A stretch of 64,000 nucleotides of DNA. Source: Nocardia alni. Its GTDB lineage: Bacteria; Actinomycetota; Actinomycetes; Mycobacteriales; Mycobacteriaceae. The stretch lies in contig NZ_JAGPOX010000013.1 in NCBI RefSeq assembly GCF_019038435.1, forward strand, positions 1 to 64,000, in the 5' to 3' direction. Position 1 is the first letter of the stretch. Every line of letters starts with the position of its first letter. The position numbers were made by a program, and so were the translations under genes. The notes below the pieces were generated by a model. It had not been told where the DNA came from. It saw nothing but the letters and a program-made list of their open reading frames with translations, and searched no databases. Shown piece after piece: positions 22,236 to 34,223 of the stretch.

Positions 22236-22925
22236 GTGAGGCGCGCGGAACGGTTGCAGGCACTGACCGAGAGTTTGCGGCGTGCCGGCCGTAACGGACG
22301 TACTGCCGAGAGTTTGTCCGCCGAACTCGAGGTGACGACGCGCACCGTGAAGCGCGACATCGCCGGGCTTCTCGCCGCCGGCCTGCCGATCTGGAGCCGC
22401 ACCGGGCCGGGTGGCGGATACGGTCTTGCCGAGACCGGATCGCTGCCACCGGTGAACCTGGGTCCGAGCCAGGCCCTCGCCTTAGCAGCGGCGGCCACGG
22501 TCCTCGGGGTGGGTCCGTTCGGGGACTCGGCGCGCAGCGCGTCGCGCAAGGTGCTCGACGTCGTAGACCCGGCAACCCGCCGCCGCGCGAGGGACCTCGC
22601 CACGAGAGTCTGGGTCGACGTGGCGCCCGGCGCGCCCCGCAGGGTGATGTCCCCGCTGGAGCAGGCCATGCTCGATCAGCGGGTCGTGAACATCGCATAC
22701 ACCGACGCCCAGGGGCGCGTCACCCGCCGTGCGGTGGAGCCGCTCCTGTTCGCGTTTCACCACGGACACTGGTATCTCGTCGCGTGGTGTCTGCTGCGTG
22801 ACGCGGTGCGGTGGTTCGACGTCGGGCGCATAGGCCGGGCGACGGTGACTCGAGAGCCCTGCTCCGGTCATGCCGTGACAGAGATCGGCGAACCGCCGGA
22901 AACGGCGCGGCCGGCCGCCGTCTGA
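22236..22925 (+). CDS. HTH-WYL transcriptional regulator
   Basis: About 229 aa from a GTG start with GGGGCGG six nt upstream. The N-terminal winged helix (RLQALTESLRRAGRNGRTAESL, then ELEVTTRTVKRDIAGLLAAGLPI) is of DeoR/HTH_11 type. The C-terminal WYL-like domain includes RRAVEPLLFAFHHGHWYLVAWCLLRDAVRWFDVGRI, about residues 168-203, where the WYL triad appears as WYLVAW. Such regulators sense small or nucleic-acid ligands. Likely controls the divergent hydrolase. Confidence 0.9.
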   Translation: MRRAERLQALTESLRRAGRNGRTAESLSAELEVTTRTVKRDIAGLLAAGLPIWSRTGPGGGYGLAETGSLPPVNLGPSQALALAAAATVLGVGPFGDSARSASRKVLDVVDPATRRRARDLATRVWVDVAPGAPRRVMSPLEQAMLDQRVVNIAYTDAQGRVTRRAVEPLLFAFHHGHWYLVAWCLLRDAVRWFDVGRIGRATVTREPCSGHAVTEIGEPPETARPAAV

Positions 22926-22965
22926 ACGGCCCGCCGCCCTTATTGTTCTCGCGTCAGCGGGCCGT
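22926..22965. terminator. Possible hairpin between convergent genes
   Basis: ACGGCCCGC (22926-22934) pairs with GCGGGCCGT (22957-22965) across a 22-nt AT-containing loop. One arm enters the end of the P450 gene. Could end transcription in both directions, but the long loop makes it weak. Confidence 0.35.
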
Positions 22966-24246
22966 CAATTGGAAGGTAAGTCCGACGGGGCTGAAAGTCA
23001 GGCCCTCCGAGATGCGTAGTTGGTAGTCCTGGGGGATGGTGATGTCGTAGCGCCGGACGATCAGGGCGATGATCAGGGCGATTTGGTGCAGGGCGAATTG
23101 ACGTCCGATGCACGCTCGCACGCCGGTGCCGAACGGCTTGAACGAATGTGGCGGGCGGGACCGGACCTGCTCGGGCAGAAAGCGATCCGGGTCGAAGTGT
23201 TCGGCGTTCTCGCCCCAGACCGTGTCTCGGTGCAGGGCGGGTAGCAGGACGAAGTAGGGGTCGCCCGCCCGCATCGGGTATTTGCCGCCGAGTGTCGTGT
23301 CCTGCTTGGCGACTCGGGAGTACCCCGGTGCCGTCGGCCACAGCCGCAACGACTCGTCGACCGCGCGGCGCAGGTAACGAAGCTTGGACACCTGCTCGAA
23401 CAGCGGCTCGTCGACGTCGGCCAGCGTGTCGACCTCCTCCTGAACCCGTTGCAGCACAACCGGATCGGCGGCCAGGTAGTACAGCGTGAACGCCATGGCG
23501 GCGGAGGTGGTCTCGTGGCCGGCGGCCAGGAAGGTCAGGACCTGGTTGCGGATGTTGACCGGGTCGAGCGTATCGGATTCGAGCATCAGGCCCAGCAGAT
23601 CCGAACCGCGGTCACCGCCGGTGCGTCCGGCGATTACCTCGTCGACGACGCCGTTGAGGTAGGCGATGTTCTCCGTATTGCGTTCGGCGGCACGCTTGCC
23701 CAGGAATCCGCCGGCCATCGGCGGGCGGGTGACCAGCCGCTGCCCGTGGTTGAGCACATCCTCGAGGGCGACGACGAAGGGATGCGTCGTGGCTCGTTCG
23801 AAGGAATCGAACGAGTATCCGAAACCGGCTCGGCCGATGATCTCCAGGGTCACCTTGGCCATCGAACCGGTGACGTCGACGGGCCGTACTCCGGCACACT
23901 CGTCCCAGGCATCGAGCAGCTGACGGCCCACCGCCAGCATCAGCGGGTGATATCCGCGCATCGCCGTCTGGGAGAACGCCGGCATCAGCAGCTCGTGCGC
24001 CTTGCGCCAATTCGGTTCGTGGTTGTAGGCGGTGAGCAGGCCGTCGCCGATCGCCGGGCGCACGACCTCGAGCGCGGGCAGCACATGCTTCTCGAAACGG
24101 CGATCGTCGGCCAGTTCGGCCACGAGTTCGGCGCCGGTCACGAACGTGAAACGCAGATTGAAGAATTCACGTTCGAACACCGGGCCGAGTTCACGCGCCA
24201 GCGCGGTGGACTCCTGCATGAACGAGGTATGCAGCATCGAGGTCAT
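22954..24246 (-). CDS. Cytochrome P450, CYP102 (BM3)-like haem domain without reductase
   Basis: 430 aa. The whole chain tracks the haem domain of the self-sufficient fatty-acid hydroxylase P450 BM3: IGDGLLTAYNHEPNW, HELLMPAFSQTAMRGYH, LAAGHETTS (I-helix), ESLRLWPTAPGYS (ExxR helix), LPALHRD, and FKPFGTGVRACIG with haem Cys379. The position equivalent to BM3 Phe87 reads Leu (GDGLL instead of GDGLF). The protein stops at the end of the haem domain, with no FMN/FAD reductase, so it needs an external redox partner. Last gene of a cassette with P450, ACP, FAAL and KAS III-like genes; start overlaps the upstream P450 by 4 nt. A fatty-acyl substrate is inferred. Confidence 0.93.
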   Translation of the reverse strand: MTSMLHTSFMQESTALARELGPVFEREFFNLRFTFVTGAELVAELADDRRFEKHVLPALEVVRPAIGDGLLTAYNHEPNWRKAHELLMPAFSQTAMRGYHPLMLAVGRQLLDAWDECAGVRPVDVTGSMAKVTLEIIGRAGFGYSFDSFERATTHPFVVALEDVLNHGQRLVTRPPMAGGFLGKRAAERNTENIAYLNGVVDEVIAGRTGGDRGSDLLGLMLESDTLDPVNIRNQVLTFLAAGHETTSAAMAFTLYYLAADPVVLQRVQEEVDTLADVDEPLFEQVSKLRYLRRAVDESLRLWPTAPGYSRVAKQDTTLGGKYPMRAGDPYFVLLPALHRDTVWGENAEHFDPDRFLPEQVRSRPPHSFKPFGTGVRACIGRQFALHQIALIIALIVRRYDITIPQDYQLRISEGLTFSPVGLTFQLTAR

Positions 24247-25478
24247 CGAGCGCTCCCGCTGGGATACACCGGAACGGAGCTGGGCGTACGATCGAAAAGC
24301 AGTCCGTGCCAGCGGATTTCGTCCTCGGGTTGGACAGGGCGCAGATCGGGCAGTTCGTCGAACAGCACCCGCAGCGCGATTTCGATCTCGGCGCGTGCCA
24401 GATGCGCGCCCACACAGAAGTGCGGTCCGTAGCCGAAGGTGAGGTGCCCGGTGCGCTCGCGCCGCGGGCGCAGTTCGCCGGCGTCGGCGGCCAGCGCGCC
24501 GTCGTGATTGACCGCGGCCAGCAGCACGAACACGACCGCACCGGCCGGGATGGTCACGTCCTGGACCTGTACCGGCTCCAGCGCGAATCGCCAGGGCGAG
24601 AACGGAAACGGCGGATGGAAGCGCAGCAGTTCCTCCACCGCGGCCTTCGCGTCGTCCTCGTCGTGAAGCAGGTGACGCAGGGTCGCCGCGGTGTGCATCG
24701 CGGTCATCGCGCCGAATCCGATGCCGATGGCGGTGGACGAGATGCCCGCTCCGAGCAGCATCGTCACCGTCGAGATCAGCTCACGCTTGTTGATGATCTT
24801 CTCGGCGCGGGCGCGATGCAATGCGGCCAGCACGCTGCCCTCGGGCGCGTTATCGGCATTGCGGGAGCAGTCGGTGATGATGTCCAGCAGATCGTGATAG
24901 CTCTTGCGCATATCCACCGAGGCCGGGTCGTCTCGGCCACCCAGCTTGCGGCTCAGTACCGCTGCCGCACGCAGGGTTTCGTCCGGCGTGCCCAGCACCC
25001 GCGCCATCACGATCTCGGGGACCGGCCGCGCGAAGACCTCCATCAGATCGACCGTGCCGGCATCGCGGAACTCGCCCACCAGATCTCGGCACACCTGCTC
25101 GATCTCCGGCCGCCGCCGGTTGATCGCGGCCGCGGACAGCTCGGCGCCCACCACCGCGCGCAGACGCGAGTGCTCGACGCCGTCGCTGTTGAGCATATGC
25201 CGGCCTTCGACGACGAAAGCGTCTTCGGCGTAACGGTTTCCGCCCAGGCCGTGCGCGGGGTCGCTCATCCGGCGCAGATCCTTGACCAGACGCTGATCCA
25301 TCATCGCCCGTTTACCGTCGGCGTATCGTGTGATCACCCAGGCGATCAGGCCGTCGGGCATCTCTACGCGGACCACCGGCCCCTGTTCCCGCAGGGCCTG
25401 GCACACCGCGTCGAACTCGTGCTGATCGGCCGTATCGGGGAACGGGAAACTCGTCGCGGCGTCGATCGTGACGGTCAT
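24243..25478 (-). CDS. Cytochrome P450 (bacterial class I type)
   Basis: 411 aa, unlike its BM3-like neighbour and closer to CYP105/107-type bacterial P450s. ExxR at VEELLRF; haem loop FGYGPHFCVGAHLAR with Cys355. The I-helix reads LLGAGISSTAIG, so the usual acid-alcohol pair (D/E-T) that delivers protons for O-O cleavage is replaced by Ser-Ser. That feature occurs in some P450s acting on carrier-bound or hydroxyl-bearing substrates. It overlaps both the ACP gene and the second P450 gene by 4 nt, implying the three are translated together. No ferredoxin gene is nearby. Confidence 0.93.
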   Translation of the reverse strand: MTVTIDAATSFPFPDTADQHEFDAVCQALREQGPVVRVEMPDGLIAWVITRYADGKRAMMDQRLVKDLRRMSDPAHGLGGNRYAEDAFVVEGRHMLNSDGVEHSRLRAVVGAELSAAAINRRRPEIEQVCRDLVGEFRDAGTVDLMEVFARPVPEIVMARVLGTPDETLRAAAVLSRKLGGRDDPASVDMRKSYHDLLDIITDCSRNADNAPEGSVLAALHRARAEKIINKRELISTVTMLLGAGISSTAIGIGFGAMTAMHTAATLRHLLHDEDDAKAAVEELLRFHPPFPFSPWRFALEPVQVQDVTIPAGAVVFVLLAAVNHDGALAADAGELRPRRERTGHLTFGYGPHFCVGAHLARAEIEIALRVLFDELPDLRPVQPEDEIRWHGLLFDRTPSSVPVYPSGSAR

Positions 25479-25753
25479 GCCGTCGCAGCCTGGGAGCCGA
25501 TGGTGTAGGCGATCAGTTCGGCCAGATCCTCGCCGGTCCGGACTTCGACGAGTTCGTCCTCGTCGAGCGAGATGTTCCAGTGCTTCTCGCAGTTGACCAC
25601 CGTCTGCACCAGGCGCATCGAGTCGATTCCGGGGAGTTCGGTGAGCCGGACGGCGAGGTCCACCTCGGCCGCGGGGCAGCCGAGCAACCTCGCCAGCTCG
25701 TTTCGCAGGACCTCGGCGACTTCGGCGGCCTGGTCGGTCAGGGGCTGGGTCAT
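25475..25753 (-). CDS. Acyl carrier protein
   Basis: 92 aa with the four-helix carrier fold. Phosphopantetheine attachment Ser45 lies in GIDSMRLV, and the C-terminal half is acidic (LDEDELVEVRTGEDLAEL). The start is fixed by the FAAL stop: TGATG overlap at 25751-25755. Placed between the acyl-AMP ligase and two P450s, it most likely carries the acyl chain handed over by the ligase while the P450s oxidise it. Confidence 0.93.
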   Translation of the reverse strand: MTQPLTDQAAEVAEVLRNELARLLGCPAAEVDLAVRLTELPGIDSMRLVQTVVNCEKHWNISLDEDELVEVRTGEDLAELIAYTIGSQAATA

Positions 25754-27441
25754 CACGAACTCACTTTCATGGACAGCGGTTCTGCTGCGAGATCGGTGGA
25801 CAGATGGGCGCGGGCAAGTTCCGCGACCAGCGAGCGCTGCCACTTTCCGCTGGTCGTACGCGGCAACGCCTTGGCGGGGACGAGCAGTACGGAGATCGCC
25901 GACAGGGTCAGCGCGCGCGAGACCGCGCCGCTGATCGCGGCGACGAGCGCCGTGCCCTCCGGGCCGTCGGCCGGATGTTCGCTCTCGGCGACGACGATCA
26001 TGCGTTCGGCGTCGCTGTCGGCGACCGCGACGCAGTGACCCTTGTAGACCCCGGGAACGACGCGCGCGGCCTCCTCGACGTCGTCGGGATAGAAGTTGCG
26101 TCCCTGGACGATGATCATCTCCTTGACCCGCCCGACGATGATCAGCTCGCCGTCGTGCAGCAGTCCGAGGTCGCCGGTGCGCAGCCAACCGTCGACGACG
26201 GTGGCGCGCGTGATCTCCTCGTCACCGTGGTAGCCCTCGGTGACCGACGGGCCCTGGATCCGGATCTCGCCCACGTGCCCGTCCGGCAGCACGGCGCCGT
26301 CGAGACCGGTTATCCGCAAACAGATTCCCGGGACCGGGACGCCGACCGCGACCAGTTCGCGGGCGTTCGGCGAGTCCGGTGACACCGGCCGATAGGCCCG
26401 GCCGGGAACGAGTTCGTCGCGGTCCACGATCAGCACCCGCGGCGGCGTCCCGGGAATCGGCAGCGTGACCGCCAGGGTGGCCTCGGCCATTCCGTAGCCC
26501 GGGTACATCGTGGCCTCGGGCACGCCCAACGGCCCGAAGGTACGCGCGAATTCCCGCACCGTATGCGCCCGGACCGGCTCCGCGCCGTTGAGTGCGAGTC
26601 GCCAGCGCCGCAGCGGCTGCCCTTCCGGCGTGGCGCCGAATGCCTCCGGGGCGGCATCGATGAGCTTGTCGAAGGAGAAGTTCGGCCCGTTCGTGATCGA
26701 TCCGCCCACCCGCGCGGTGTGCGCCAGGACCGCAGCCGGATTCTTGATGAAGGTCAGCGCGGGGAACAGATGCGCGTCGTTGGGCGTGAGCAGCGAGCAC
26801 ATCAGCGATACCAGGCCCATATCATGGAACAGCGGAACCCACTGCACCAGAACGTCTTCCGACGTCGTCTGGATATGAGTGTTGATCGCGTCCAGGCCGG
26901 CTACGAACTGGGCGTGCGTGAGTCGTACCCCCTTGGGACGCGAGGTGCTGCCGGAGCTGAACTGCACCACCGCCAGATCGTCGGGTTCGACTGCCGCCCA
27001 GCCGGTCTCGTCGTCCGGGGGCAAATCGTCGAGATCGACCACCTGGAGGCCGGGAATCCGCTCGGCGAGTGCCGATGCCACCGCACGGCCCTTCCGCGTG
27101 GTGAGCACGATCCGGATACCACCGGTTCGCATGATGGGCGACAGGTGATCCGCGACGGGGGCGGGGTCGAAAACCATCGGCGGCAGCGGCAGCGCTGTCA
27201 CCGCCGCGCCCGTGCCGAGACCGCCGAAGAATCCGGCCAGCCACTGTGGGGACGTGGGCATCAGCAGACCGATGAGATCACCCGGGGCAGCGCCCGATTC
27301 GCGCAGGCGGCGGGTTACCGGCCGCGCCGCCGCAGGAAGATCGCGGTGTGCCAGTACGGTGTTCGTGTCGGCGAAGGTGACGGCGCGATCGCTGCGGTGC
27401 AATGCGTCCAGCAGTTCGATCAATGTCCGCGGCGGAGTCAA
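25753..27441 (-). CDS. Fatty acyl-AMP ligase (FAAL)-type adenylating enzyme
   Basis: 562 aa of the ANL superfamily. Core motifs: VVQFSSGSTSRPKGV (P-loop), VQWVPLFHDMGLV (FAAL-typical segment), YPGYGMAEATL, LRTGDLG and the C-terminal VKEMIIVQGRNFYPDDVE and TTSGKWQRS with catalytic Lys. FAALs activate fatty acids as acyl-adenylates and load them on carrier proteins rather than CoA. The next gene is an acyl carrier protein (1-nt overlap), the expected acceptor. It starts 3 nt after the KAS III-like gene. Chain length cannot be read from sequence. Confidence 0.93.
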   Translation of the reverse strand: MTPPRTLIELLDALHRSDRAVTFADTNTVLAHRDLPAAARPVTRRLRESGAAPGDLIGLLMPTSPQWLAGFFGGLGTGAAVTALPLPPMVFDPAPVADHLSPIMRTGGIRIVLTTRKGRAVASALAERIPGLQVVDLDDLPPDDETGWAAVEPDDLAVVQFSSGSTSRPKGVRLTHAQFVAGLDAINTHIQTTSEDVLVQWVPLFHDMGLVSLMCSLLTPNDAHLFPALTFIKNPAAVLAHTARVGGSITNGPNFSFDKLIDAAPEAFGATPEGQPLRRWRLALNGAEPVRAHTVREFARTFGPLGVPEATMYPGYGMAEATLAVTLPIPGTPPRVLIVDRDELVPGRAYRPVSPDSPNARELVAVGVPVPGICLRITGLDGAVLPDGHVGEIRIQGPSVTEGYHGDEEITRATVVDGWLRTGDLGLLHDGELIIVGRVKEMIIVQGRNFYPDDVEEAARVVPGVYKGHCVAVADSDAERMIVVAESEHPADGPEGTALVAAISGAVSRALTLSAISVLLVPAKALPRTTSGKWQRSLVAELARAHLSTDLAAEPLSMKVSS

Positions 27442-27444
27442 CTC

Positions 27445-28323
27445 TCATTCCTCTCGTTCGCCGCGCACCAGGAGCATGGTGACGGTGAACCCGACACCGA
27501 TATTGACGATCAGGGCGTATTCCCCTGGGGCCGGGCGTCGCTCGGTGCGCAGGTAGTTCAGATTCGCCGCGAGATCACCGGCGAACAGGTGCCCGCTTTG
27601 TCCGGACAGATCAACGTATTCGGCGGCCGGCAGCAACCCGTGGAACATCGCCTCGATGAACGCGGGCCGCAGCCGAGGGCCGACGACCATCGACAGCCGG
27701 GGGTCGTCGGGTTCGATGTCCGCATCGGCGAAAACCATCTCGACAGCGGTTCGCACGCATCGGCGCACCCGAAAGATGTTGGCGGCGGTGGTAACCGAGG
27801 CGACCGGATCGCGCGCGGCCCAGTTCGCCTCCTCCTCGGTGACCGAGCAGGAGGCGATGGACCGGATCGACAATGCGCCGGGGTCGCGGGTCAGCAGCAC
27901 CGCGGTCGCCGCATCGCCCAGCGGTGTCCCCGTTTCGGGCATCCAGCCCCAGACGGCCTCCGGGCCGTGCACGTCCGCTGTCACGACGAGACTGTGCGTG
28001 AGGCGTATCTCGGCCAGCATCTGGGCGACGGCGAACTGCAGCGCGATCGCGCCGCCATTGCTCATCTGCCGAACACCTAGCGCCACAGCATGTTTAGCGC
28101 CGAGCAGTCGGGCCAGGCGCGGTGCGGTCGTGCAATCGTCGGGAGTCGGATCGAATATCCGCGAGTGCGTGAGCAGGCCGATGTCGGCGGCCGAAACCCC
28201 GCTCTGGTTCAGTGCTCCGAAACTTGCGGTGAGGGCCAGCGATTCAACCGCCGGCTGCTCGACCTCTGGAAGCGCCACCGTTGCCGCTCCGATATGTAAC
28301 CGACCGTCTACCTGCATAGCCAC
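27445..28323 (-). CDS. KAS III-like (thiolase-fold) protein with Cys-to-Ser active site
   Basis: 292 aa, shorter than usual for 3-oxoacyl-ACP synthase III (about 320-340). Thiolase-fold features: LLTHSRIF, LGVRQMSNGGAIALQ, ETGTPLGDAATAVLL, and the C-terminal SGQSGHLFAGDLAANL and VNIGVGFT glycine loops. Where KAS III has its catalytic Cys in a GCNGG-like turn, this reads MSNGG with Ser88, so decarboxylative condensation by a Cys thioester is not expected. It could act as an acyltransferase, an esterase-like enzyme or a scaffold. First gene of the acyl-modifying cassette. Confidence 0.88.
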   Translation of the reverse strand: MAMQVDGRLHIGAATVALPEVEQPAVESLALTASFGALNQSGVSAADIGLLTHSRIFDPTPDDCTTAPRLARLLGAKHAVALGVRQMSNGGAIALQFAVAQMLAEIRLTHSLVVTADVHGPEAVWGWMPETGTPLGDAATAVLLTRDPGALSIRSIASCSVTEEEANWAARDPVASVTTAANIFRVRRCVRTAVEMVFADADIEPDDPRLSMVVGPRLRPAFIEAMFHGLLPAAEYVDLSGQSGHLFAGDLAANLNYLRTERRPAPGEYALIVNIGVGFTVTMLLVRGEREE

Positions 28324-28359
28324 GCCGTTCCATGATTACCGGTGCTTCGCTGGGAAGTT

Positions 28360-28439
28360 TACTGACAATCAGTATGTTTCGCGCGGCAAGCGACCGACCG
28401 GTAGAGCGTAGAGAACGTGATCCTGTCACCGGAGTGACA
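28360..28439. promoter_or_regulatory. Two operator-like palindromes before the KAS/FAAL/ACP/P450 cassette
   Basis: The 146-nt gap before the cassette contains TACTGA-CAA-TCAGTA (28360-28374) and TGTCAC-CGGA-GTGACA (28424-28439), both perfect. Their half-sites differ, suggesting two regulators or one operator plus a leader hairpin. Every other gap in this stretch of minus-strand genes is under 40 nt, so this is the likely separate promoter for the five-gene cassette. Confidence 0.5.
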
Positions 28440-28469
28440 TCTTTGTTGATCTTTCCTCCGCCGGTACGG

Positions 28470-28871
28470 TCAGTCGGCGCCGCGCGCGGCCGCCCGTTCG
28501 ATGGTGTCCATGCAGCGCTGTAAGGCGAAGGCCGGATTGATCTCGAGCGCCTCGGTCGCCTCCTCGTAGATCAGCACGTGGCCCGCGGGAAAGAAGTAGG
28601 CCTCGCCGGTGGTGGCGACCTCGTCGGGCTGGCCGGTGCCGGGATACGATGCGCGGATCGTGCCCGAGAAGATGTAGCCGTAGTGGGGGCAGACACAGAC
28701 CCCGCCGGGCATGCCGCCGACACGGTAGAGCTCGGTGCAGTCCCGCGGTCCGGCGGTTCTGGTCAATCCGACCTCCATATCGCCCCACTGGATGGAGCGA
28801 AACCCCTTGCCGCTCAGCGGCCAGCGTCCGCCGCCTCCGGCCGGAAGGTCTTCGAGTCGTGAATGTGGCAC
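28470..28871 (-). CDS. Small cupin-like protein
   Basis: 133 aa. The middle and C-terminal part has a cupin-like strand pattern: HYGYIFSGTI, then GEAYFFPAGHVLIYEE, which resembles the two cupin motifs with His and Gly-Pro turns, and a Cys-rich GGVCVCPHYGY. Metal ligands cannot be assigned with confidence. Likely role: a sugar- or acid-binding isomerase, or a regulator-like domain. Last gene of the long minus-strand operon, 33 nt after an APH-fold kinase. Confidence 0.75.
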   Translation of the reverse strand: MPHSRLEDLPAGGGGRWPLSGKGFRSIQWGDMEVGLTRTAGPRDCTELYRVGGMPGGVCVCPHYGYIFSGTIRASYPGTGQPDEVATTGEAYFFPAGHVLIYEEATEALEINPAFALQRCMDTIERAAARGAD

Positions 28872-28904
28872 GGTGGGTTCTCCTTTACATGTGCCCGCGC
28901 GGGT

Positions 28905-32166: not shown

Positions 32167-33414
32167 TCAGCCGAAGACGACGGGAATCTCGGTGGCGCCG
32201 CGTTCGTACATGCCGATGAACCGGGGCGGTTCGGCATCCGGGTCCAGTCGCAGGTTCGGTAGCCGGTCCAGGAGCGCTCCGATGCCCGTGACCATCTCGG
32301 CCCGCGCCACGTTCATGCCCAGACAGGCGTGCGCGCCGCTGCCGAAGGCGAACGAGGGCCGCAGCCGCCGGGTGATGTCGTAGGTGTCGGGCTCGTCCCA
32401 GCGCGCCGGATCCCGGTTGGCGGCCCCGAGGCACAGGTGCAGCACCGCGCCCGCCGGCAGATGCACTCCGTGAAATTCGGTGTCGCTCATGACATATCGA
32501 GAGAACATGGGGTCGGTCGCCTGCCATCGCAGCGCCTCGTCGATGGCAGGTCGCAACAGACCGCGGTCGGCGGCGACCGCGGCCAGCAGTCGCGGCCGTT
32601 GCAGCAACGCGGTCAGCGTTATCCCCATCTGCTTCCACGTCGTGCCCGACCCCGCGGTGAGCAGGAGGACCGCGAAGGAGAATATCTCGGCGTCGGACAG
32701 GCGTTGGGTCCCGCCGTCCTCACCGCGCAGTTCGGCTTGTACCAGGATGCTGATCAGATCGTCCTCGGGTCGCTCGCGCCGCGCCGCGACGATCGGCCGG
32801 ATCATCTCGACCACGGTCTCCGGATTGCCCACGGCCGCACGGATTTCCAGTGCCTGCTGCACGGGGACGCCGAAACTTCCGGTGATGGTGAGAACCGGGA
32901 TCGCGGCACAGAAGTCGACGTTCAACTCGGCGCTGCCGGTGTCGGCGAACCCCTCGATGAGTTCATGCACCGTCTGCTCGATCCAGTTCCGGATCCACCA
33001 CCCCGCCCGCGCCGGCATGAACGACGGCTGCACGAGCGACCGGTAGCGCCGATGCTGTGCGCCACCCATCGACAGCATGCTGTTGGTCGGGCTGGGCCGG
33101 CCGACATTGGGATCGACCGGAACCGGGGACGAGGCGAAGATCTCCGGGTTGCGGTAGGCCGTATCGCAGGCGGCGAAGCTGAACGCGGAGAAGTGTTCCC
33201 GATCCGATTGCGGCAGTCCGCTGAAGAGCGCCGGGCCGGTATAGCCCGTCAGTTCGTGCACCGTGCCGGGATGCACCTCGGCTTGCTCCCGGAGGCGATG
33301 CCAGACGGGGTAGGGATCCGACTCGTACCCGCCTCCGGTCTGCGCCAGGTAGGCGCCGCGCAGATCGAACAGTTCGCGGATGCGGTCGCGGTCGAGTGTC
33401 GTCGCGGAACTCAT
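32167..33414 (-). CDS. Cytochrome P450
   Basis: 415 aa. I-helix LLTAGSGTTWKQMG, ExxR helix DEALRWQATDPMFSRYV, haem loop FAFGSGAHACLGMNVARAE with Cys364. Class I bacterial type, needing ferredoxin and ferredoxin reductase from elsewhere. Start at 33414 is preceded by GAGG; an alternative ATG at 33438 overlaps the SDR stop as ATGA and would add eight residues. In an operon with SDR, amidohydrolase, aldehyde dehydrogenase and CoA-transferase, it probably performs the first hydroxylation of the growth substrate. Confidence 0.94.
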   Translation of the reverse strand: MSSATTLDRDRIRELFDLRGAYLAQTGGGYESDPYPVWHRLREQAEVHPGTVHELTGYTGPALFSGLPQSDREHFSAFSFAACDTAYRNPEIFASSPVPVDPNVGRPSPTNSMLSMGGAQHRRYRSLVQPSFMPARAGWWIRNWIEQTVHELIEGFADTGSAELNVDFCAAIPVLTITGSFGVPVQQALEIRAAVGNPETVVEMIRPIVAARRERPEDDLISILVQAELRGEDGGTQRLSDAEIFSFAVLLLTAGSGTTWKQMGITLTALLQRPRLLAAVAADRGLLRPAIDEALRWQATDPMFSRYVMSDTEFHGVHLPAGAVLHLCLGAANRDPARWDEPDTYDITRRLRPSFAFGSGAHACLGMNVARAEMVTGIGALLDRLPNLRLDPDAEPPRFIGMYERGATEIPVVFG

Positions 33415-33434
33415 GGATTCGCCTCGCTCGTCGT

Positions 33435-34223
33435 TCATTTGGCTACGTAGCCGCCGTCGACCGGGAACAGCACCCCGGTGACGTTGGACGCGTTGTCGGA
33501 CACCAGGAACACCGCGGCCTGTGCGCAGTCCTCCGCGGTGATCGGCCGGCCGAGTGGATGATTGGCGGCCGTGCGTTCGGCCATTCGTGCGACCGACTCG
33601 GCATCCGCGGGTGCGCCGCCCGCTGCCATGAAATGGGTGTACGGCATGCCGGCCGGGCAGATGGCGTTGGCGCGGATGCCGAACGGCGCGCCCTCGATCG
33701 CGACCGACCGGGTCAGTTGGTGAACCGCGCCCTTGGTAGCCGAATACACCGCGCCGCCCCAAGCCACGAGTCCGGCAACGGACCCGGTGTTGAGGATGAC
33801 GCCGCCGCTGCCCTGCCGTTTGAACTGCAGGACAGCGTGTTTGCAACCGAAGAAGACGCCCCCGACGTTCACCGCGACCAGGCGCTGGAAGTCGTCGGCC
33901 GTATGCTCCTCCAGCGTCGCACCCAAACGGGGAGTCGGGACGCCGACATTGTTGAACACGATGTCGACGTGGCCGAAGTGCGCCGCCGCGTTCGCGATCA
34001 GCGCTTCCACCTCGGCCTCGCGGGCGACATCACATGTCACGGGAAGTGCCGCGCCACCGGCGTTCTCGATCTGCCGCGCGGTGTCCTGGGCGGCATCACC
34101 CTGGATGTCGGCGCATACGACACGTGCGCCCTCTGCCGCGAAACGCAGTGCGGAGGCCGCCCCGACGCCGGATCCGGCGCCGGTGACAACGGCTGTTTTC
34201 CCTTGCAAAAGCATCGAATTCAC
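33435..34223 (-). CDS. Short-chain dehydrogenase/reductase
   Basis: 262 aa, classical SDR. TGAGSGVG cofactor loop, Asp of CADI favouring NAD, NNVG, catalytic Ser in NTGSVAG and YSATK. The C-terminal DGGYVAK is intact. It would oxidise a hydroxyl introduced by the adjacent P450. Also resembles bile-acid/steroid-type alcohol dehydrogenases. Part of the long minus-strand operon. Confidence 0.93.
   Translation of the reverse strand: MNSMLLQGKTAVVTGAGSGVGAASALRFAAEGARVVCADIQGDAAQDTARQIENAGGAALPVTCDVAREAEVEALIANAAAHFGHVDIVFNNVGVPTPRLGATLEEHTADDFQRLVAVNVGGVFFGCKHAVLQFKRQGSGGVILNTGSVAGLVAWGGAVYSATKGAVHQLTRSVAIEGAPFGIRANAICPAGMPYTHFMAAGGAPADAESVARMAERTAANHPLGRPITAEDCAQAAVFLVSDNASNVTGVLFPVDGGYVAK

Follow-up and report, generated by a model that had tools for sequence, protein, structure and literature searches.

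A recurrent cassette of a KAS III-like acyltransferase, a fatty acyl-AMP ligase, an acyl carrier protein and cytochromes P450 in Nocardia: a probable fatty-acyl donor module

We analyzed a 64,000-nucleotide stretch of the Nocardia alni genome (contig NZ_JAGPOX010000013.1, positions 1 to 64,000; hereafter the window), in which five consecutive genes on the reverse strand encode a protein resembling β-ketoacyl synthase III (KAS III; the protein is called KAS below), a stand-alone fatty acyl-AMP ligase (FAAL), an acyl carrier protein (ACP) and two cytochromes P450, P450a and P450b (Table 1). The five genes are one unit by inheritance, and the residues of KAS are those of an acyltransferase rather than of a condensing enzyme. 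On balance, we consider it probable that the cassette is a self-contained fatty-acyl donor module, in which a fatty acid would be loaded on the ACP, oxidized while bound to it and then transferred by KAS.

Table 1. Genes of the cassette, key codons and the adjoining upstream stretch (positions in the window)
Feature	Position	Strand	Remarks
KAS III-like acyltransferase (KAS)	27445..28323	-	292 aa, GTG start
KAS Ser88 codon	28060-28062	-	
KAS Arg217 codon	27673-27675	-	
KAS His245 codon	27589-27591	-	
KAS Asp250 codon	27574-27576	-	
FAAL	25753..27441	-	562 aa, TTG start
ACP	25475..25753	-	92 aa, ATG start; phosphopantetheine Ser45, codon 25619-25621
P450a	24243..25478	-	411 aa, ATG start; I-helix AGISST at 24732-24749; ExxR E283-R286; heme Cys355
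P450b	22954..24246	-	430 aa, ATG start; CYP102/BM3-type heme domain without fused reductase; I-helix AGHETT
KAS upstream stretch, homologous to sister cassette	28324..28437	-	contains TACTGACAATCAGTA at 28360-28374; ends inside TGTCACCGGAGTGACA at 28424-28439

The initial annotation of this DNA had proposed such a cassette, and both the open reading frames (ORFs) on the reverse strand and the family matches confirm it. Pfam placed FAAL in AMP-binding (1.1e-53), ACP in PP-binding (2e-08), and P450a and P450b in p450 (1.4e-19 and 1.8e-71, respectively); KAS had no Pfam match at 0.001. The overlaps of 1, 4 and 4 nt at the FAAL/ACP, ACP/P450a and P450a/P450b junctions were correctly given, but KAS and FAAL, supposed to overlap by 3 nt, are in fact separated by 3 nt and share one frame (TGA GAG TTG), with the TTG start of FAAL 3 nt past the KAS stop. 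As had been stated, no thioesterase, ferredoxin, polyketide synthase (PKS) or nonribosomal peptide synthetase (NRPS) is found among the five genes, and none of the five has a Pfam match to a desaturase, in contrast to the Jam and polyyne alkyne cassettes.

A sister cassette lies on contig JAFMQT010000018.1 (L006) of a Nocardia metagenome-assembled genome, which appears to be contig C231 of genome G471 (L047) in our sample. It carries the five genes in identical order, and the TTG start of its FAAL likewise follows the KAS stop by 3 nt. When the whole window was compared with L047, nucleotide homology was found only at 22916-28437 (83.3% identity), an interval that takes in the five genes and extends past them by about 114 bp on the upstream side and 38 bp on the downstream side; the flanks differ, the upstream flank of the sister contig being short (about 0.6 kb in L047, and 1.3 kb beyond KAS in L006). 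The ratios of nonsynonymous to synonymous substitution rates between the window and L047 were 0.27 for KAS, 0.24 for FAAL, 0.21 for ACP, 0.25 for P450a and 0.16 for P450b. The single unit that the initial annotation had read from gene order is upheld by the confinement of homology to the cassette and by the agreement of the KAS, FAAL, P450a and P450b clades described below.

KAS matched FabH-type NCBIfam models weakly, far below their cut-offs, and its PDB matches were DpsC, ChlB3 and CerJ. In a profile alignment, Ser88 fell on the Ser of DpsC and on the Cys of ChlB3 and CerJ, His245 and Asp250 fell on the GHLGGGD-type motif, and Arg217 fell on a His of DpsC, at a place where ChlB3 and CerJ have residues other than His. 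The condensing His of KAS III enzymes of the DpsC kind is absent from the protein, with Arg217 in its stead. Ser88, His245 and Asp250 are invariant in the KAS alignment (A1). Judged by these aligned residues, KAS carries a KAS III-like acyltransferase signature of the Pau29 kind, namely, Ser-His-Asp with the condensing His replaced by Arg. Because Ser replaces Cys within a conserved Ser-His-Asp set, an active acyltransferase seems likelier than a scaffold; an inactive scaffold was rejected on the basis of the conserved set and of purifying selection. Of the earlier description of a Cys-less KAS-like transferase or scaffold, the transferase is retained and the scaffold is not, and "Cys-less" understates the substitution.

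We counted these residues in cassette and non-cassette KAS proteins. All 18 cassette KAS have the His, the Asp and an Arg at the condensing-His place; 17 have Ser as nucleophile and one has Cys. Among 25 non-cassette KAS, the His is present in 24, the Asp in 25 and a nucleophilic Ser in four (Cys in 21), and the condensing-His place holds Arg in 22 and His in three (L046, L094 and L096). The Ser nucleophile is accordingly the sole enriched residue (17/18 versus 4/25), in counts that compare related sequences. The KAS-like rows totaled 50, 15 from cassettes and 35 others, and the count used 25 of these 35; ten (L033_6353, L044, which has Ser, two of L045, L078, L079_4982, L080_13550, L086_4559, L091_5703 and L095) were dropped owing to the cut-off, no motif match, a long branch or FabH-like character.

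Chains annotated as fatty acyl-adenylate ligase, FadD32 and FadD23 are among the best PDB matches of FAAL, and the top match is 3kxw, a Legionella FAAL; NCBIfam FAAL models matched the protein below their cut-offs. In alignments to 3kxw and to chains of the FadD32 type, its stretch from YGMAEATLAV to GVPVPG, which may be the FAAL-specific insertion, showed no more than small gaps. P450a is nearest to 8fz8 and TamI among PDB entries, and keeps the ExxR motif and the heme-Cys motif FGYGPHFCVG. Its I-helix lacks the acid before the alcohol, and with it the canonical acid-alcohol pair. This acid is absent in all 12 cassette P450a (nine from the genus, two from G879 and one from G1039, the last three by eye) and present in eight of the nine other P450s compared, several of these eight being near copies (L130-L133). 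The exception, P450c of the window (32167-33438, among the neighboring genes), also lacks it (AGSGTT). P450a may thus have a role dedicated to a carrier-bound chain, and its chemistry may be other than plain hydroxylation. Homologs of P450a at 33-36% identity (7 of 9 places read) had no FAAL/ACP/KAS set in those stretches.

P450b aligns over residues 15-424 of 430 to the CYP102/BM3 heme domain (5e-106), and its ORF stops with that domain, without the fused reductase of CYP102. The carboxylate anchors of BM3, Arg47 and Tyr51, are aligned with Leu and Phe of P450b. Their absence would be in keeping with a chain whose carboxylate is not free, a weak point because 8hkj lacks them too. Six P450b homologs at about 50% identity or less, two of which are fused CYP102-type proteins (L126 and L127, in the genus), had no FAAL/ACP/KAS set in the stretches read. 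A third P450b copy, with 71-73% identity to that of the window, occurs at L122:3707-11461 and L123:10168-17880, and adjoins two AMP ligases, a transporter of the major facilitator superfamily type, a diiron-like protein (Pfam below cut-off) and an ACP; L122 additionally has a thioester-reductase-like gene. These two loci are a second FAAL-ACP setting for P450b. One of two near-identical P450b of G879 (C1 4654086-4655402, in L149) has AGYGTT and not AGYETT in the I-helix, and is possibly a decaying duplicate.

Of the 150 genomes of the genus, 13 gave matches to a KAS profile at E <= 1e-107, at 15 places in total, and the next match stood at 3e-74. All 13 neighborhoods were read: an ACP was present in 13, FAAL in 12, P450a in nine, a desaturase-type protein in five and P450b in four. 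Either P450a or an acyl-ACP desaturase-type protein occurs in every one of the 13, and one has both. The desaturase-type protein was found in L032-L035 and L037, on the basis of Pfam FA_desaturase_2 for L034 and L035 and of similarity for the other three. The recurrent core is therefore FAAL-ACP-oxidase-KAS, and P450b is an extra (4/13). Genomes G464 and G472 have a seven-gene form (KAS, P450a, P450b, KAS, FAAL, ACP, P450b). These seven-gene cassettes (L030:3333-11352 and L031:4017-12035) sit between the genes of ribosomal proteins S14 and S8. In four further genomes of the genus, too, no S14 gene turned up within 1.5 kb of S8, and the gap between the two may therefore be a common insertion spot.

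The search for the five-gene order that the initial annotation had suggested thus returned the same order in the Nocardia metagenome-assembled genome, and the set recurs beyond the genus. G879, from another family, has the five-gene set twice, once as P450b-KAS-FAAL-ACP-P450a and once with P450b divergent, and G1039, from yet another family, has FAAL-ACP-P450a-KAS. KAS matches occurred in 13 of 397 genomes in a sample of the order, and among the 11 read of the 12 others (G728 included, G901 being the twelfth) the cassette was present only in these two. KAS matches occurred in 41 of the 394 genomes sampled across the class. Eighteen of the 40 others were read, at 20 places in all, and no FAAL+ACP+P450a set was found in these 20 neighborhoods, one non-cassette KAS (L096) having a FAAL-like gene within 6 kb. 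In a family sample searched with the KAS of the window, 3 of 401 genomes matched at 1e-20, namely, the window's own and two without the cassette (L045 and L152). Plasmid relatives numbered 29 records, and the four read of the 20 listed sit in other contexts. Because few candidates were scored per genome (14-16 in the genus searches and 5 in the class and order searches), absence in these genome searches is weak evidence.

In the trees, a single branch set the cassette KAS apart (15 rows, support 100/98), and 16 cassette rows stayed together when G879 and G1039 were added (100/99). The cassette FAAL formed one clade (12 rows, 100/99; a long-branch warning applies where it parts from other FAALs), and the cassette P450a another (9 rows, 100/100); long rows were flagged in the KAS and P450a trees. 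The P450b of cassettes and of L122 and L123 likewise formed one clade (10 rows, 100/99). The inner order of the trees largely agrees, (window, G471) standing with (G464, G472) and then G449; G879 falls between in the 16-row KAS tree, and the FAAL and P450a trees do not include it.

The genes next to the cassettes vary. One cassette (L036) adjoins a terpene synthase (Terpene_syn_C_2). At L038:545-14607, a mevalonate-pathway run precedes FAAL-ACP-P450a-KAS and a gene whose cyclase-like product contains DSDDTA and matched SQHop_cyclase_C just above the cut-off; this locus likely encodes an acylated terpenoid pathway, as judged from its gene content. The cassettes of L032 and L037 lie near NRPS genes, that of L039 near a PfaD-like protein and a PKS, and that of G1039 near NRPS or PKS genes. 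The NRPS, PKS and thioester-reductase genes and most mevalonate genes were named by eye.

In the window, the stretch between the KAS start and the end of homology (28324-28437) is likely the promoter region. A promoter scan of 22700-28900 gave no sigma-70-like site, and two terminator-like sites at chance level. Upstream of the KAS gene, TACTGACAATCAGTA forms an inverted repeat that is imperfect in the sister cassette and is a possible operator. Beside but apart from the cassette, 28470-51237 holds catabolic-type genes, including two CoA transferases, an amidohydrolase, a thiolase-like protein, a Rieske oxygenase, an enoyl-CoA hydratase and a luciferase-like oxidoreductase. Membership of the cassette in this catabolic set was rejected because homology stops at 28437, and a type II PKS or butyrolactone setting because the cassette has no such genes.

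The initial annotation had proposed that an acid passes from FAAL to ACP to the P450s, and this is still the simplest reading of the gene set. By its family, FAAL would adenylate a free fatty acid, probably of medium or long chain, and load it on the ACP phosphopantetheine. P450a would oxidize the ACP-bound chain, and P450b would make a second oxidation, acting either before loading, with the free acid as substrate, or on the chain once it is bound to ACP; both would borrow ferredoxin and reductase from the cell. KAS would then take the acyl chain from ACP onto Ser88, using Ser88-His245-Asp250, and pass it on with no condensation step, either to a second carrier protein or to an acceptor that is produced elsewhere and offers a hydroxyl or an amine. 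With KAS as the release step, the absence of PKS, NRPS and thioesterase would be accounted for, and the occurrence of cassettes beside varied scaffold genes is as expected of a donor module. The transfer step is modeled on Pau29, CerJ, ChlB3 and CloN2, the last being likewise KAS III-like. Pau29 has the Ser-His-Asp motif without the condensing His and is proposed to form the paulic acid ester, and an acyl-CoA synthase and an ACP are among the possible suppliers of its substrate (PMC4425429); CerJ makes a malonyl ester, and ChlB3 puts 6-methylsalicylate on the ACP ChlB2 (PMC9573744).

Several observations weigh against the donor-module reading. No acceptor-making gene was recognized beside the cassettes of the window, G471, G464, G472 and G879, and that of G470 (L039) has no FAAL in the stretch read. 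The lone Cys among cassette KAS belongs to G879. Since the His, Asp and Arg are also common in non-cassette KAS, they mark a wider KAS III-like family. An AlphaFold2 model of KAS built from a two-sequence input had a mean predicted local distance difference test score of 45.8, and gives no structural support. The likeness of P450b to CYP102 fits oxidation of a free acid as well. A C116S exchange abolished the activity of CerJ, so that Ser is not simply interchangeable with Cys, and DpsC, a Ser enzyme, is described as condensing (PMC9573744).

Three other readings were weighed. KAS might move the oxidized acyl group from ACP to another carrier and so start a PKS or NRPS encoded elsewhere. We regard such a shuttle as unlikely, though as the strongest of the three: ChlB3 acts on a carrier in this manner (PMC9573744), CloN2 moves a pyrrole acyl group from CloN5 to CloN1 (PMC11218499) and NRPS or PKS genes lie near the L032, L037, L039 and G1039 cassettes, but no megasynthase was recognized near those of the window, G471, G464, G472 and G879, and the nearest precedent by motif, Pau29, is proposed to form an ester (PMC4425429). 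That KAS is a hydrolase or a poor transferase, and that the cassette releases a free oxidized fatty acid, we hold to be improbable. ChlB3 does hydrolyze acyl-N-acetylcysteamine substrates (PMC9573744), and a freed product would fit a window cassette with no recognized acceptor gene nearby. Related cassettes, however, recur near scaffold genes. Loading and then hydrolyzing a chain would also cost ATP, although BM3-type enzymes do oxidize free acids. There is very little to recommend the last reading, in which KAS would add a malonyl unit to the loaded chain and give a β-keto acyl product. The sequence is of the thiolase family with FabH-type matches, and the condensing DpsC shares its SNGG motif (PMC9573744), but Arg stands in 18/18 cassette KAS where DpsC has His, a residue that the non-cassette relatives L046, L094 and L096 keep.

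A wider form of the donor-module reading is that the cassette is a plug-in system for acyl tailoring, one that recurs, is scattered through the order and serves any host scaffold. The fatty acid would be presented by FAAL and ACP and oxidized by a class of P450s that lack the I-helix acid and are devoted to acyl-ACP, at times joined by a BM3-type P450 or an acyl-ACP desaturase, and the Ser-His-Asp KAS would attach it to terpenoid, peptide or polyketide acceptors. We put this forward tentatively, as somewhat short of an even chance. If the donor-module reading is right, the cassette would be a compact route to make and attach oxidized fatty-acyl groups, and would provide small parts for placing such groups on alcohols. 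A Ser-type KAS beside FAAL, ACP and an acid-less P450 would be a genetic handle for acylated natural products, and would find products that PKS/NRPS-centered scans may overlook. That cassette membership goes together with a missing I-helix acid offers a testable lead on the way P450s handle carrier-bound chains.

The initial annotation recognized no described pathway with this combination, and our search of open full-text literature, by title and the start of the abstract, gave no paper on this set (MIBiG and most subscription papers lay outside the search); the term P450 is absent from the main text of a 2025 FAAL review (PMC11837247). Several known systems resemble parts of the cassette. Pau29 (paulomycin), CerJ (cervimycin) and ChlB3 (chlorothricin) are like KAS in the His-Asp pair, the lost condensing His and the nucleophile loop, and Pau29 also in the Ser; they serve sugar or aromatic acyl pathways in larger clusters, whereas the partners of KAS in the window are FAAL, ACP and P450s, with no recognized scaffold beside them. 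CYP102/P450 BM3 matches P450b in the heme domain and differs in its fused reductase and carboxylate anchors. The jamaicamide JamABC and polyyne cassettes share with the window FAAL, ACP and oxidation on the carrier, there by a desaturase. A survey of polyynes reports cassettes of the FAAL-desaturase-ACP type and, for ten actinobacterial polyyne loci, a P450, with no KAS III-like transferase mentioned in the excerpt available; polyyne loci have several desaturases and mostly a thioesterase (PMC8406139). The window has no desaturase. The clorobiocin pyrrole module has an activating (CloN4), a carrier (CloN5), an oxidizing (CloN3) and a transferring protein (CloN2), and is like the cassette in that an acid is activated, loaded on a carrier, oxidized there and transferred (PMC11218499). 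Clorobiocin uses proline and the oxidase CloN3, whereas the cassette has FAAL and P450s and is without a second carrier or a CloN7-like transferase. The parts of the cassette are known from such systems, and their combination appears to be undescribed.

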